A DNA stretch of 64,000 nucleotides from an uncultured beta proteobacterium. Lineage in GTDB: Bacteria; Pseudomonadota; Gammaproteobacteria; Burkholderiales; Burkholderiaceae_C. This document shows positions 34,511-39,971 of this stretch, piece by piece (position 1 is the stretch's first letter; each line of letters starts with the position of its first letter). The stretch spans positions 45,161 through 109,160 of the forward strand of contig CAIRAW010000067.1 of the NCBI GenBank assembly GCA_903876735.1, read 5' to 3'. A model generated the notes under the pieces. That model had not been told where the DNA came from. It worked only from the letters and a program-made list of their open reading frames with translations, and made no database searches. A program made the translations under genes and the position numbers.

Positions 34511-35305
34511 ATGTTTACCGATTCACACTGCCATTTGACCTTTCCGGAGTTGGCGGCACAGATCCCGGCTATCCGCACCGCCATGGCCCAGGCCCAGGTC
34601 GACCGCGCGCTGTGCATCTGCACCTCGCTGGAGGAATTTCCGGGGGTGCATGAACTCGCGACCGGGTATGACAACTTCTGGGCCACGGTCGGCGTCCATC
34701 CAGACAACGAAGGCGTCCAGGAACCCAGTCTGCAGGACTTGCTGGACCGGGGAAAGATGCCGCGTGTGGTCGGAATTGGGGAAACCGGGCTCGACTATTA
34801 CAGGCTTGCGGGCCGCAGCATTGCCGAGATGGCTTGGCAGCGCGATCGCTTTTGCACCCATATCCTGGCGGCACGCCAGTTGGGGCTGCCGCTGGTGATT
34901 CACACCCGGTCCGCCTCGGACGACACCCTGGCGATTCTGCGCGAGCAGGGCGAGGACGGTTCAACGGGTAGCGCCGGCGGGGTATTTCACTGTTTTACCG
35001 AAACGGCCGATGTTGCTCGCGCTGCGCTGGACCTGGGTTATTACATCTCCTTTTCTGGCATCCTGACCTTCAAGAATGCGCAGGATCTGCGCGACGTGGC
35101 GGCTTTTGTGCCGCTGGACCGGTTGCTGATCGAGACCGACAGCCCCTATTTGGCCCCGGTGCCCTACCGCGGAAAGACCAACAACCCGTCCTATGTGCCG
35201 CACGTGGCAGCTCAGTTGGCGGCAATCAGGAATCTTCCGCTTGCGCAGATCGCACAGGCCAGCAGTCGTAACTTCGAAGCCCTGTTCAAAGGTGTTCTGA
35301 AATGA
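34511..35305 (+). CDS. TatD-family metal-dependent hydrolase
   Basis: [58 protein letters not shown]. Confidence 0.95.
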
Positions 35306-35985
35306 GTTTGCGACCGCCTTTGAAGTTAAAGTGTTTATTTCGAAAGTGTTTTTATCTTGTTGTTTTTACTGGATATTCTCTTTGCTCGGCCGGGTCATTT
35401 GAGGATTACTTTACGGCCATCAAACGCGATGATGCCGAACTCATCGCCGGCTTGTTGAAGCGCGGTTTCGACCCCAACACGCCCAATTTGGAGGGTGAAC
35501 AAGGGCTGTTTCTTGCCATTCGGGATTCGTCACTCAGGACTGTAAAGGCGCTGCTGCGCCATCCCGACACCCAGGTCGAGGCGCGTTCGCTCAACGATGA
35601 AAGCCCGCTGATGCTGGCTGCACTAAAGGGTTTGACCGATCTGTGCCAGCAATTGATAGCCAGGGGCGCGGACGTCAACAAGCCGGGATGGACGCCGCTG
35701 CATTACGCCGCCACCAACGGTCATTTAGCGGTGATGGCCCTGTTGCTTGAGGAGCACGCCTATATCGACGCAGCATCACCCAATGCCACAACACCGCTCA
35801 TGATGGCGGCGCGCTACGGCACGGCTGAGGCGGTCAAGTTGTTACTGGAGGCTGGTGCCGACCCGACGCTCGCCAATGATCAAGGATTGTCCGCCGTGGA
35901 GTTTGCCCAGCGCGCCGGTCGGGCCGATATAGCGGGGATCATCGCAACCGCCATCCGCAAGCGTCAGCCCCCGGCCACTTGGTAG
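35302..35985 (+). CDS. Ankyrin repeat protein with N-terminal signal/anchor
   Basis: Repeated ankyrin units ([67 protein letters not shown]). Confidence 0.92.
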
Positions 35986-36033: not shown

Positions 36034-36051
36034 TACTTCATACGATGTATA
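36034..36051 (+). repeat. Left direct repeat (XerC arm plus central region; degenerate XerD arm CCTTACTAATG to 36062)
   Basis: Exact match to 37443-37460. Confidence 0.95.
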
Positions 36052-36069
36052 CCTTACTAATGCTTTGAT

Positions 36070-36354
36070 TTAATTGAAGATTTTTCCGAAGTGGGTAAAA
36101 AAAGGGGCGTTCTTGGAAGTCAGAACAGCCGGTTTTTCAGGGCGCGGGGCGGCATCTGTGGCACGCAGCGTCCACTGGCGCGAAGTGGAAACCGTGGCTG
36201 GCATAGGCTGGGCAGGGCGCAACGGTCCATAGCCTCGATGTGGCAGAGATTGACCGATCGGGTACCCCTCCCGGCGTTTCGCTTCGCTTCCATGGGGTTT
36301 CACCCCATACCCCCGGCGAATGGTGCGAACGACATTTTCAAACCACCAGGTCAT
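36070..36354 (-). CDS. Small hypothetical protein of the IMEX candidate (MTWWFENVVRTIRRGYGVKPHGSEAKRREG...)
   Basis: Start overlaps stop of the upstream ORF by ATGA at 36351-36354. Confidence 0.5.
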   Translation of the reverse strand: MTWWFENVVRTIRRGYGVKPHGSEAKRREGYPIGQSLPHRGYGPLRPAQPMPATVSTSRQWTLRATDAAPRPEKPAVLTSKNAPFFTHFGKIFN

Positions 36355-36545
36355 GATGCGTCACCCCCATGGCTCAGGCCCTCGACCACCTCAGCCGCTG
36401 CGCGGATAGATTCCACCTGCTCGCGAAAGACGTAGACCCAAGGCGGGGCAGTCTCGCCAGCTGCGGCTTCGAGCGATTCCCCGATGGCGTGAGCCATGAG
36501 CAGCCGGTCATTCAGGGCGTTGACGGCCTCGCGCAGGGCGCTCAT
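36351..36545 (-). CDS. Small hypothetical acidic protein (64 aa)
   Basis: Same-strand ORF with ATGA coupling; helical-looking sequence MSALREAVNALNDRLLMAHAIGESLEAAAGE. Confidence 0.55.
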   Translation of the reverse strand: MSALREAVNALNDRLLMAHAIGESLEAAAGETAPPWVYVFREQVESIRAAAEVVEGLSHGGDAS

Positions 36546-37450
36546 AGGGCACCCCTTGGCGTGCTCGCCTGCTTGGCGGCCTTCGCCGCCGCAGGCATTG
36601 CACTCTGGCTACATTGAGCGGGACAGGGCTTGACGCTCACGCTTGTCTTTCTCGTAGATGGCCTGCTTTTCGGCTCGGGTGAGCTTGGCGGGTTGGGCGG
36701 GTTCGGTCGGTTGAGGAATTGTTTTAGATGGCTTTGGCTCAGCCGCTGCTGGCTCTGATCGGGCCGCAGGAGGTTCACCCGGATTGCGCAGGTAGGCGTC
36801 CAAGGCAACGCAAATGAGAGCGTTGATGCTGATGCCGAGATAGTCGGCCTTGGCGCGTGCAGCGGCGTCAAGGGCGTCTGGGAGTCTGAGTGAATAGGCC
36901 ATACTTGCATTATGACGTCATTTTGACGTTGCTTTGACGGGTTATTTTTTGTTGAATCAAGAGTTGTTTTATATGGGACAAGCCCCGCGGCTTCGCCGCT
37001 TTCGGCGCGCTGCGCTTGCCGCTCGAAAGCTGGCGCCGCCGTGACCTCAGCCAATGCGAGGCGCAGCCGGGTGGCTTCGTCGTAGACCGCCCGAAAGCCT
37101 GCCGCCTGCCTGACGAGCAGAGACCACCACGAGCCATCATGTGGCGTGATCTGGCGACCCTCTGGCGTGATCAAGACGTTCCCTTCAAGCCGCCAGCCGG
37201 CCCAAGCCTCGCTGGGCAGTTCCAGACGCGCCAGGACGCGAGCCAGTTTGTAGACGGCATACGGGATGCGGTGCGCGCCGCTTTCCCAGTTATGCCAAGT
37301 GCGATCCGTGACCTGAAAATATTTCCCCGCAGCCTCGACCGACCAGCCAAGCTTGATCCGGGAGTAACGCAGGCGTTCTCCAAGCTGGGCGCGGGTGTCC
37401 GGGTCATGGGGGCATGTTTTCCTGTACTTTGAACTGTGACTGTACTTCAT
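36542..37450 (-). CDS. VC1465/XafT-like Xer recombination activation factor (N-terminal ~130 aa; C-terminal part of ORF doubtful)
   Basis: LGERLRYSRIKLGWSVEAAGKYFQVTDRTWHNWESGAHRIPYAVYKLARVLARLELPSEAWAGWRLEGNVLITPEGRQITPHDGSWWSLLVRQAAGF has the HTH plus WRL.GN.L.TPEGR pattern of this phage/satellite family; the C-terminal half overlaps the RHH gene in another frame. Confidence 0.65.
   Translation of the reverse strand: MKYSHSSKYRKTCPHDPDTRAQLGERLRYSRIKLGWSVEAAGKYFQVTDRTWHNWESGAHRIPYAVYKLARVLARLELPSEAWAGWRLEGNVLITPEGRQITPHDGSWWSLLVRQAAGFRAVYDEATRLRLALAEVTAAPAFERQAQRAESGEAAGLVPYKTTLDSTKNNPSKQRQNDVIMQVWPIHSDSQTPLTPLHAPRPTISASASTLSFALPWTPTCAIRVNLLRPDQSQQRLSQSHLKQFLNRPNPPNPPSSPEPKSRPSTRKTSVSVKPCPAQCSQSAMPAAAKAAKQASTPRGAL
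36609..36902 (-). CDS. Small Arc/RHH-like DNA-binding protein
   Basis: MAYSLRLPDALDAAARAKADYLGISINALICVALDAYLRN resembles a ribbon-helix-helix fold followed by a Pro/Lys-rich tail. Confidence 0.65.
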   Translation of the reverse strand: MAYSLRLPDALDAAARAKADYLGISINALICVALDAYLRNPGEPPAARSEPAAAEPKPSKTIPQPTEPAQPAKLTRAEKQAIYEKDKRERQALSRSM

Positions 37451-37471
37451 ACGATGTATATTATGTTAACC
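37444..37471 (+). other. dif: Candidate chromosomal dif site: ACTTCATACGA TGTATA TTATGTTAACC
   Basis: Central TGTATA and XerD-arm TTATGTTAA identical to the E. coli dif 15-mer TGTATATTATGTTAA; XerC arm divergent (4/11). Confidence 0.8.
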
Positions 37472-37536: not shown

Positions 37537-38988
37537 CTAGACGCCGGTAGCCTTTGCCATCAGTGCACGCCAGCGCTGGTAGCGCTTTTGCAACGCTGAA
37601 TCGGGTTTGGCCGTGAAGACATCCTCATGTGCGCCCTGGTTCCAATCCAAAGGTCGCCCGCATGCCAGATAGGCAATACCGCGCGCGCTCGCTTCCGGGT
37701 CGTCACGCCGATGGACCGGCAAACCACTGATACTGGCAAGGCACTGGCACAGTCCATCCAAGAGCGACACGCCGCCACTGACGCGGATGCGCTTAGCGGC
37801 AGGGATATAGCGGTCCATGTGGTCGATATTGGCCTGCAGCAGGAAGGCAATGCTCTCGACCACGGCCACGGCTTTCAGCCAAGGCTCGCCCTCGCCCACA
37901 AAGCGTGACTGGAACTCGGCTTGCCAGAACGGTCCACCCAAGCCAGCAATGCCGTTGAGAAACAGCGGCGGCTCCTCGTGCCTTGCCAGCCATTGCGCCA
38001 GTGTGTCAGCGAGGTTGCCAAGACCAAACTCCTTGCTGACCCATTCCAGCGCAGTGCCGGCTCCGTTCACATTGCCTTCGACCATATAAAGGCGGCTCGC
38101 ACCGTCGTCCAGGATGATTCCGGTCAACTGGCGCGGCACCTGGCCGGGAAAACTCGTAAGTGCGCGTTGCACGAAGGCACTCGTACCGATGTTGATATAC
38201 GCCGAATCAGCTTCAGGCCAGCCGAACGCGAAAACAGCTGCCGACTGGTCGCCGTTGACTGCGGTCAGTGGAATAGCCGTGCCCAGCAGGTCCAGCGTTC
38301 CCCATGGATAAAAGGTGGGCACACTGCGTGGCAAAAAACCCTCGGGCAGGCCAAAGAGTTCCAGCAGGTCCGGGTCCCAGTCCTGAGTCTGCAGGTTCCA
38401 GAGCTGGGTGCGCGCGGCGCACTGCGGGTCTGCCAAAAACGGCTGCTCAGCGCAGAGGCGAAAAACGACAAAACTGGCCATCGGACCCCAGCACAGGGTT
38501 TTGTTTTCAAGCGCCCCCCGCACGGCAGGCAGATTGTCCAGCGCCCAGCGCAGTTTGCTGGCGCCATAGTGCGGAGAAAGGTAGAGGCCACTCTTGCGGT
38601 GCACGCCATCGGCGTGAGGCTGCAACTGGTCAATCCAGGCGTGGGCACGCCGGTCTTGCCAACTGAAGATCGGAGACAAGGGTTTGCCTGTGACCCGGTC
38701 CCAACAGATCACGCTCGAGCGCTGGCTGGAAAGCCCGGCGGCCACCACGTCCTGACGGCGCGTCCCCAAAGCCTGCAAGGCCTGCGTCACCGCGAAGAGC
38801 ACGGAATTGACGATTTCGTCGCCATCCTGCTCAGCCCAGTCCGCCTGCGGGTATTTGATGCTGATGTTTTCAACGCCGCTGGACAGCGTGCGCCCCTGTC
38901 GGTCAAACACGAGTGCCCGGCTGGCATGCGTTCCCTGGTCAATGGCCAGGACCAGAGGGTTGCTTACGGCACCGATCCTTTCGTCCAT
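37537..38988 (-). CDS. FGGY-family carbohydrate kinase (glycerol kinase-like)
   Basis: LAIDQGTHASRALVFDRQG, INIGTSAFVQ, IRVSGGVSLLDGLCQCLASISGLPV. Confidence 0.9.
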   Translation of the reverse strand: MDERIGAVSNPLVLAIDQGTHASRALVFDRQGRTLSSGVENISIKYPQADWAEQDGDEIVNSVLFAVTQALQALGTRRQDVVAAGLSSQRSSVICWDRVTGKPLSPIFSWQDRRAHAWIDQLQPHADGVHRKSGLYLSPHYGASKLRWALDNLPAVRGALENKTLCWGPMASFVVFRLCAEQPFLADPQCAARTQLWNLQTQDWDPDLLELFGLPEGFLPRSVPTFYPWGTLDLLGTAIPLTAVNGDQSAAVFAFGWPEADSAYINIGTSAFVQRALTSFPGQVPRQLTGIILDDGASRLYMVEGNVNGAGTALEWVSKEFGLGNLADTLAQWLARHEEPPLFLNGIAGLGGPFWQAEFQSRFVGEGEPWLKAVAVVESIAFLLQANIDHMDRYIPAAKRIRVSGGVSLLDGLCQCLASISGLPVHRRDDPEASARGIAYLACGRPLDWNQGAHEDVFTAKPDSALQKRYQRWRALMAKATGV

Positions 38989-39001: not shown

Positions 39002-39916
39002 TCAAGACACCGAGAAGCTCACGATCGGCGTACTCAGATCGGCAAAGGACGATCCCAGCGCAATCTGGCCTTCGCCGTGCAAAACACATTCTTCGCGCCG
39101 GAGCAACAAATCAGAGCCGCCGCCTGAAAACCGGACCCAGCATCCATAGGAGCTGAGGTCGACCAGCATCATGCTGCCGTTGCGCCAGTCGATTCGGGCG
39201 TGGGTACGTGAAACGCGGGGATCATCGACCACAAATTCCGCCCGGTGCAAACGGCCAATGTGAATCGGCAACTCGAAGGACTTGAAACTCATTCTGTCCT
39301 TCATCCAGACCAGTTCAATTTGCCCGCCCAGGGTATCGACCTGAGCCGGATCGAACAGAGGAACCATGTCCGACTGCATGGTCAGCAAGGCCGACGTCGC
39401 ATCATCCTCCCAGTCAACCTGGTAGACGGTACAGGGCTCGGCACGCCCCCTGATGCTGATCGGACCCATCACGCGAAATCGAACGTCCTGCGCCTCGCTC
39501 ACACCATCCAGCGCCGCGCCGTTGGTCCAGATCTGGCTCGCGCCAGCAAGATCGCTCAGGCGTGATGCCACGTTGACGGCGTCGCCATAACAGTCTCCGG
39601 CCACGATCTCGACGTCGCCGCTGGCAACACCGATGCGGATCGGCATGCGGTTGGCCGGCGCAATATGCGGCATGCGTTTTTGGTGTTTGCGCTGCAACTC
39701 GACCACCGCGCTGATGGCGGCAGGGTTATTTCCGAACAAGGCCAGCACGCCATCGCCCAGCATTTTGACCACACGTCCCCCATGCGCCTCGATAATCTTG
39801 GCGATCCAGGTCGTTACCTGCGTGACGGCCTGCGTCGCCTTGGCATTGCCCAAGGCTTCGAAGACACTTGTGCTGCCGAAAAGATCGGCAAATACGACGG
39901 TGGCATGAGCACTCAT
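39002..39916 (-). CDS. Adenylate/guanylate cyclase (class III) domain fused to FHA domain
   Basis: VVFADLFGSTSVFEALG, VVKMLGDGVLALFGN, IGVASGDVEIVAGDCYGDAVNVASRL; FHA: IHIGRLHRAEFVVDDPRVSRTHARIDWR. Confidence 0.9.
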   Translation of the reverse strand: MSAHATVVFADLFGSTSVFEALGNAKATQAVTQVTTWIAKIIEAHGGRVVKMLGDGVLALFGNNPAAISAVVELQRKHQKRMPHIAPANRMPIRIGVASGDVEIVAGDCYGDAVNVASRLSDLAGASQIWTNGAALDGVSEAQDVRFRVMGPISIRGRAEPCTVYQVDWEDDATSALLTMQSDMVPLFDPAQVDTLGGQIELVWMKDRMSFKSFELPIHIGRLHRAEFVVDDPRVSRTHARIDWRNGSMMLVDLSSYGCWVRFSGGGSDLLLRREECVLHGEGQIALGSSFADLSTPIVSFSVS

Positions 39917-39971
39917 TCCGGCCTGGTTTCCATTTGGTTGAGTTGGCACAGTTTAGGGCAAATCAGCGTTC

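Follow-up and report, generated by a model that had tools for sequence, protein, structure and literature searches.

A Rhodoferax-type dif site and the 1.4-kb element that adjoins it

When a dif-like 28-mer has its XerC half repeated 1.4 kb away, does it mark the terminus of the chromosome, the end of an integrated element, or both? This question is raised by the sequence ACTTCATACGA-TGTATA-TTATGTTAACC on the plus strand of the 64-kb window, i.e., the whole stretch of DNA that was analyzed (Table 1). We suggest, with a probability of about 0.88, that it is both the chromosomal dif site and the attR of a 1.4-kb element that was inserted via a XerC-side route.

Position and uniqueness of the dif site

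The 28-mer exhibits the 11-6-11 layout of dif sites and has a well conserved XerD arm. An earlier note on this DNA had proposed it as a candidate dif by comparison with that of E. coli, and this comparison is correct by inspection: the central region is identical at all six positions, the XerD arm at 9 of 11 and the XerC arm at 4 of 11, with a 15-mer common to both sites. Allowing up to three mismatches, the window contains one copy of the 28-mer, where 0 would be expected, and the entire 3.91-Mb, 82-contig draft genome contains no further one, and a looser proteobacterial dif pattern has its sole genomic match at the same position. The genome-wide scan advised by the note thus yielded a single site, and a better dif elsewhere, the finding that would have spoken against the candidate, was looked for in the 82 contigs of the draft and none was found.

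The same-genus genomes used for comparison include several named Rhodoferax in GTDB, and most relatives are represented by MAGs. TGTATATTATGTTAA is present as an exact match in mostly one copy per same-genus genome, and the XerC arms of the genus read ACTTYATACGA or are near variants thereof. The arm of the window matches these; divergent as it looks next to E. coli, it is the norm within the genus. The published dif of R. ferrireducens DSM 15236, ACTTGATACGATGTATATTATGTTAAGT (Carnoy and Roten 2009, PMC2731167), is identical to the window site at 25 of 28 bases, differs at three positions, and shares with it the central region and the nearness to the GC-skew maximum; here, in contrast, the XerC arm was seemingly supplied by an integrated element. 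The dif itself is ordinary and of a catalogued type.

The cumulative GC skew reaches its maximum at contig position 82137, 467 bp from the start of dif at 82604, so that the peak foreseen for the whole replicon was found at the scale of the 109-kb contig of this draft genome. KOPS of the form GGGNAGGG aim at dif in 42 of 45 cases when three genomes are pooled: the contig of the window has 11 forward and 0 reverse copies to the left of dif and 0 and 2 to the right, the corresponding numbers are 9/0 and 1/13 in G010, and they are 4/1 and 1/3 in G036, where exceptions are present. Both of these relatives are assembled as single contigs; in G010 (length 4,936,681), dnaA lies at 61 and the dif site follows at 2,478,845 (50.2% of the chromosome), and the distance from dnaA to dif in G036 amounts to 49.3%. 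To the right of dif, the window has a strong local negative GC skew between 56000 and 60000 (−0.11 to −0.15 in 2-kb windows) that ends at about 59–60 kb.

The gene content expected for a dif of the XerCD type is present as well: XerD and the FtsK gamma domain score above their cut-offs, and a second XerC/D-type recombinase (258.7 bits) is taken as the putative XerC. As a site that occurs once per replicon, at the terminus, the candidate can, as judged by its sequence and context, be regarded as confirmed: positions 37444–37471 are the chromosomal dif of this Rhodoferax-type genome, at which the host XerC and XerD would resolve chromosome dimers under FtsK.

Table 1. Coordinates of the dif site, the integrated element and the flanking genes in the window
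Feature	Positions	Strand	Remarks
dif = attR	37444..37471	+	single site, relatives' arms, skew, published dif
dif, XerC arm	37444-37454	+	
dif, central region	37455-37460	+	
dif, XerD arm	37461-37471	+	
attL	36035..36062	+	XerC arm 36035-36045, central region 36046-36051, non-XerD half 36052-36062
Integrated element	36046..37454	.	1,409 bp, repeat to repeat
HTH (cro/C1 type) + DUF3653 gene	36542..37450	-	conserved part residues 1-135, ~37046-37450
Arc-like ribbon-helix-helix (RHH) gene	36609..36902	-	97 aa
64-aa gene	36351..36545	-	no assigned function; family in 19 of 31 tabulated elements
Conserved left-end motif	36063..36087	+	family form TTTGATWTTCATGGAAATTCTTTC
Conserved non-coding motif GTTTTTCAGGGCG	36132..36144	+	
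Ankyrin-repeat gene	35302..35985	+	left border of empty site in relatives
Adenylate-cyclase/FHA gene	39002..39949	-	right border of empty site in relatives

Ends, genes and empty site of the element

The duplication of the XerC arm at a left element boundary, also reported in the earlier note, is real, and the repeat is longer than claimed: an exact 18-nt direct repeat, TACTTCATACGATGTATA, at 36034–36051 and 37443–37460 spans the entire XerC arm and the entire central region. The remainder of the left copy, CCTTACTAATG, matches the XerD arm at just 4 of 11 positions and is hence not a XerD arm. In genus relatives with an empty locus, the order is tatD, an ankyrin-repeat gene, dif and an adenylate-cyclase/FHA gene, i.e., dif occupies the same locus in relatives that are free of the element; the distance from the ankyrin stop codon to dif is 14–103 bp, and that from dif to the cyclase gene, where the latter follows directly, is 25–54 bp. 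Related elements in other genomes can be aligned over the whole interval bounded by the XerC arms of attL and attR, whereas their flanks diverge. In the window, a gene for an FGGY-family carbohydrate kinase (37537–38988) is situated between dif and the cyclase/FHA gene; it is absent from that position in most relatives examined.

The three genes of the element all lie on the minus strand, and Pfam and PHROGs searches of its open reading frames revealed neither recombinase genes nor genes for replication or virion morphogenesis; an Rfam search gave no match. An element that sits at dif, leaves a complete dif at one end, has no recombinase of its own and is missing from the empty site of relatives has properties expected of Xer-exploiting elements (IMEX). 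The HTH-DUF3653 gene is found at the XerC-arm side and is transcribed away from this arm; the part of its frame that follows the conserved segment and overlaps the RHH gene may not be real coding sequence. The candidate start codon of this frame, an ATG at 37448–37450 (minus strand), belongs to the XerC arm of dif, and the XerD arm contains a promoter-like −10 element (CATAAT) on the minus strand. A role of this ATG as a switch was considered and discarded, given that several relatives carry ACTTTATACGA in its place, which lacks the ATG. A hairpin of about 40 nt at 36275–36313 shows 90% identity to a segment next to repA in pM02_c11, a 1.6-kb rolling-circle plasmid. Since a pattern for it matched no more than 3 of the 61 genomes searched (that of the window, G016 and G028), we make no claim that it is a replication origin.

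The arrangement can be accounted for by the following route. A circular form, whose attP would consist of a XerC arm, TGTATA and a non-XerD half, would recombine with dif through an exchange placed at the XerC arm and the central region; the XerC arm of the chromosome would remain at the left end (attL), and that of the element would complete dif at the right end (attR). The right end would then carry a rebuilt dif and the left end a defective site, and the insertion would be stable, because FtsK-activated XerD should not excise an element whose attL has no proper XerD arm. The rebuilt dif would stay usable and could take up the next element, and tandem arrays would therefore be stacked on the dif side. 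Most likely, then, the dif of this bacterium is of mixed origin: its XerD arm is chromosomal, and its present XerC arm arrived with the element.

A family of miniature elements at dif

With the 135-aa HTH-DUF3653 part as the query, matches were obtained in 21 of 401 family genomes, and in all 21 a dif lies immediately 5' of a HTH-DUF3653 copy, on the XerC-arm side. Within the genus, PF12375 is represented in 17 of 90 genomes by 23 copies, 21 of which have dif or another (tandem) att on their 5' side; for the other two (L152 and L160), only the far att was seen. At the class level DUF3653 is rare (4 of 370 genomes), and in two further families (G737 and G534) a copy again adjoins a dif-like site.

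Both ends could be tabulated for 31 mini elements, which range from 875 to 2,728 bp, most being near 1.2–1.5 kb, and all carry the DUF3653 gene on the XerC-arm side; because the regulator was the bait by which they were gathered, the share of mini elements without it cannot be read from these numbers. The elements reproduce the XerC arm and the central region of the host dif. Within an element the central region is identical at both ends (one mismatch between attL and attR in G119 is the exception), and it tracks that of the host, be it TGTATA, TGTGTA, TGTGTG or TGTGCA. The far halves of attL agree with the XerD arm at a mean of 3.9 of 11 positions, against 3.1 ± 0.26 for shuffled sequences. 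In L061, the XerC arms differ, with ACTTTATACGA on the left and ACTTCATACGA on the right, as would be expected if the left arm is that of the host and the right one that of the element. Tandem elements occur in G003, G055, G215, G286, G331, G875 and G881. The left ends have a common motif close to TTTGATWTTCATGGAAATTCTTTC just inside attL, and GTTTTTCAGGGCG, with up to two mismatches, is found in 22 elements at 73–258 nt from attL and never in reversed or shuffled controls.

The dN/dS values of the regulator (0.09–0.29) indicate purifying selection. Its identity between the window and G053 is 83% (cyclase 61%), that between the window and G049 is 84% (cyclase 80%), and across relatives it correlates with the identity of the neighboring gene (Spearman 0.66). 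Part of the inheritance of the element may thus be vertical; the partial uncoupling of element and neighbor divergence suggests transfer, without proving it. The case for mobility is built on patchy occupancy and tandem structure, because neither a circular form nor a replication gene nor a helper was found.

Taken by their sequences, these elements look like a miniature family of IMEX that would borrow the XerC and XerD proteins of the host. No mini dif elements in Burkholderiales were found in the searched literature, which covered few subscription journals and preprints and in which one paper mentions DUF3653, and the family is apparently new. A broader proposal would be that Xer-exploiting elements of 0.9–2.7 kb are widespread at dif in Burkholderiales, with HTH-DUF3653 at the XerC arm, conserved left-end DNA and an att type outside the three described classes, and that DUF3653, which tailless phages have as well, generally marks Xer-based integration and may even be a functional partner in it; we consider this wider picture about as likely as not.

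Comparison with known systems and alternative readings

Three types of att sites have been described for the IMEX phages of V. cholerae (CTX, VGJ, TLC) and the satellite RS1 (PMC4246890). Like these, the mini element has no integrase of its own, uses a dif-like att, leaves a complete dif at one end and forms tandem arrays; unlike these, it measures only about 1.4 kb and is devoid of replication or virion genes. None of the three att types fits exactly, as the XerC arm and central region are intact here and there is no clear XerD arm. The VGJ-type att matches on the XerC side and is mismatched in the part of the central region next to the XerD arm (PMC4246890). In the window, the central region is identical at both ends in all six positions, which sets it apart from this type. 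TLC-type integration proceeds through a XerD-first exchange and needs a usable XerD arm, and the far halves of attL, near the shuffled level, do not appear to offer one. The gonococcal genomic island (difNg/difGGI) is bordered by one wild-type and one modified dif, and its stability has been attributed to the modified site (PMC9765430). The combination of one normal and one modified end site is the same here; the differences are that a 1.4-kb element rather than a genomic island is bordered, and that the far half of its attL contains essentially no XerD arm.

The dif of the same-genus genome G029 holds a 7.6-kb inovirus prophage (L114:9884-17521; Rep_trans, Zot), and the sequence directly before it agrees with the right end of the window element at 45 of 46 nt. 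This inovirus resembles the mini elements in its XerC arm, its central region and the side of dif that it occupies, and it stands in tandem with a mini element; it differs in its 7.6-kb size, in its Rep_trans and Zot genes and in that its genome is without a DUF3653 match. In G064, a relative at the level of the order, a Zot gene lies between two dif-like sites that are separated by 7.9 kb (L115:4243-12150), and this interval is probably another dif-integrated inovirus.

The tandem in G029, together with the conserved non-coding motifs and the lack of any replication or virion gene, is consistent with the element being a satellite that is replicated and packaged by a helper phage (inovirus or tailless), comparable to RS1. 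The G029 inovirus, however, shares only the att and the adjoining tandem element end with the element, and motif scans of viral contigs gave no convincing helper: the scan with a 16-mer motif had 19 exact matches, none with convincing dif-like ends, which are taken as chance, and the left-end motif had no match. A satellite nature is a serious possibility at somewhat less than even odds, and it is compatible with the insertion of a Xer-exploiting element at dif, since it concerns the means of spread only.

The second alternative relates to the regulator. Its HTH is modelled with confidence as cro/C1 type, the DUF3653 part less well (block pLDDT about 59–83), and a PDB sequence search gave one weak HTH match. 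The role that we consider most likely, at about even chances, is that of the element's repressor, of the lysogeny or immunity type. Instead, the protein could assist the Xer reaction at att as an accessory factor, comparable to XafT, which serves the TLC phage in this way. Its strict placement beside the XerC arm would fit such a function, and so would vibriophage NO16, where DUF3653 is detected in gene 7 (2.2e-15): this gene has the same orientation, being transcribed away from the dif-like site GGTGCGCATTA-TGTATA-ATGTGGTAAAC on its XerC side, the sides being assigned here by sequence. XerCD-dependent integration at dif has been proposed for NO16, and so has a repressor role for its genes 6 and 7, gene 7 being put forward as a lysogeny repressor from expression (PMC9966536). 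This, and a predicted fold in which a common cro/C1 HTH is joined to a second domain of uncertain structure, make an accessory factor unlikely compared with the repressor that we favor.

Slightly less probable still is that the element, instead of belonging to an independent family, is what decay has left of a larger phage (inovirus or tailless) at dif. A remnant would agree with the full inovirus at dif in G029 and with the DUF3653 regulator that NO16 and PG21 (Vinavirales) have in common with the mini elements. These are 10-kb capsid-bearing phages, and the PG21 match (36% over about 69 aa) comprises the regulator domain only; a backbone that the mini elements would have in common with NO16 and PG21 is unsupported, and what they share is the regulator and, with NO16, the layout. 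DUF3653 among phages and plasmids was found in Vibrio records only, a search of viral contigs with DUF3653 revealed no relative, and phage and viral-contig searches found no full-length phage with this regulator in Burkholderiales. Because 31 elements from many genera have kept a similarly small size, both att ends and left-end motifs, and because the regulator is under purifying selection, independent decay is an improbable source. That a mobile element introduced the 28-mer as a mere dif-like relic, with the true dif elsewhere, might be argued from the element origin of half of the site and the 82-contig assembly, but is hardly credible given that the genome has no other dif site, that relatives without the element hold dif at the same locus, and that skew and KOPS switch at this very position.

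With the preferred reading of a chromosomal dif that doubles as attR, the terminus and the dif site of this genome are fixed. It also suggests an explanation for the greater variability of the XerC half of dif, compared with the XerD half, within the genus, namely that integrating elements bring a XerC arm with them. If the family is real, its members would rank with the smallest integrating elements known to rely entirely on the Xer proteins of the host, DUF3653 would gain a genomic role, and the elements would provide a natural test of an att site without a XerD arm.
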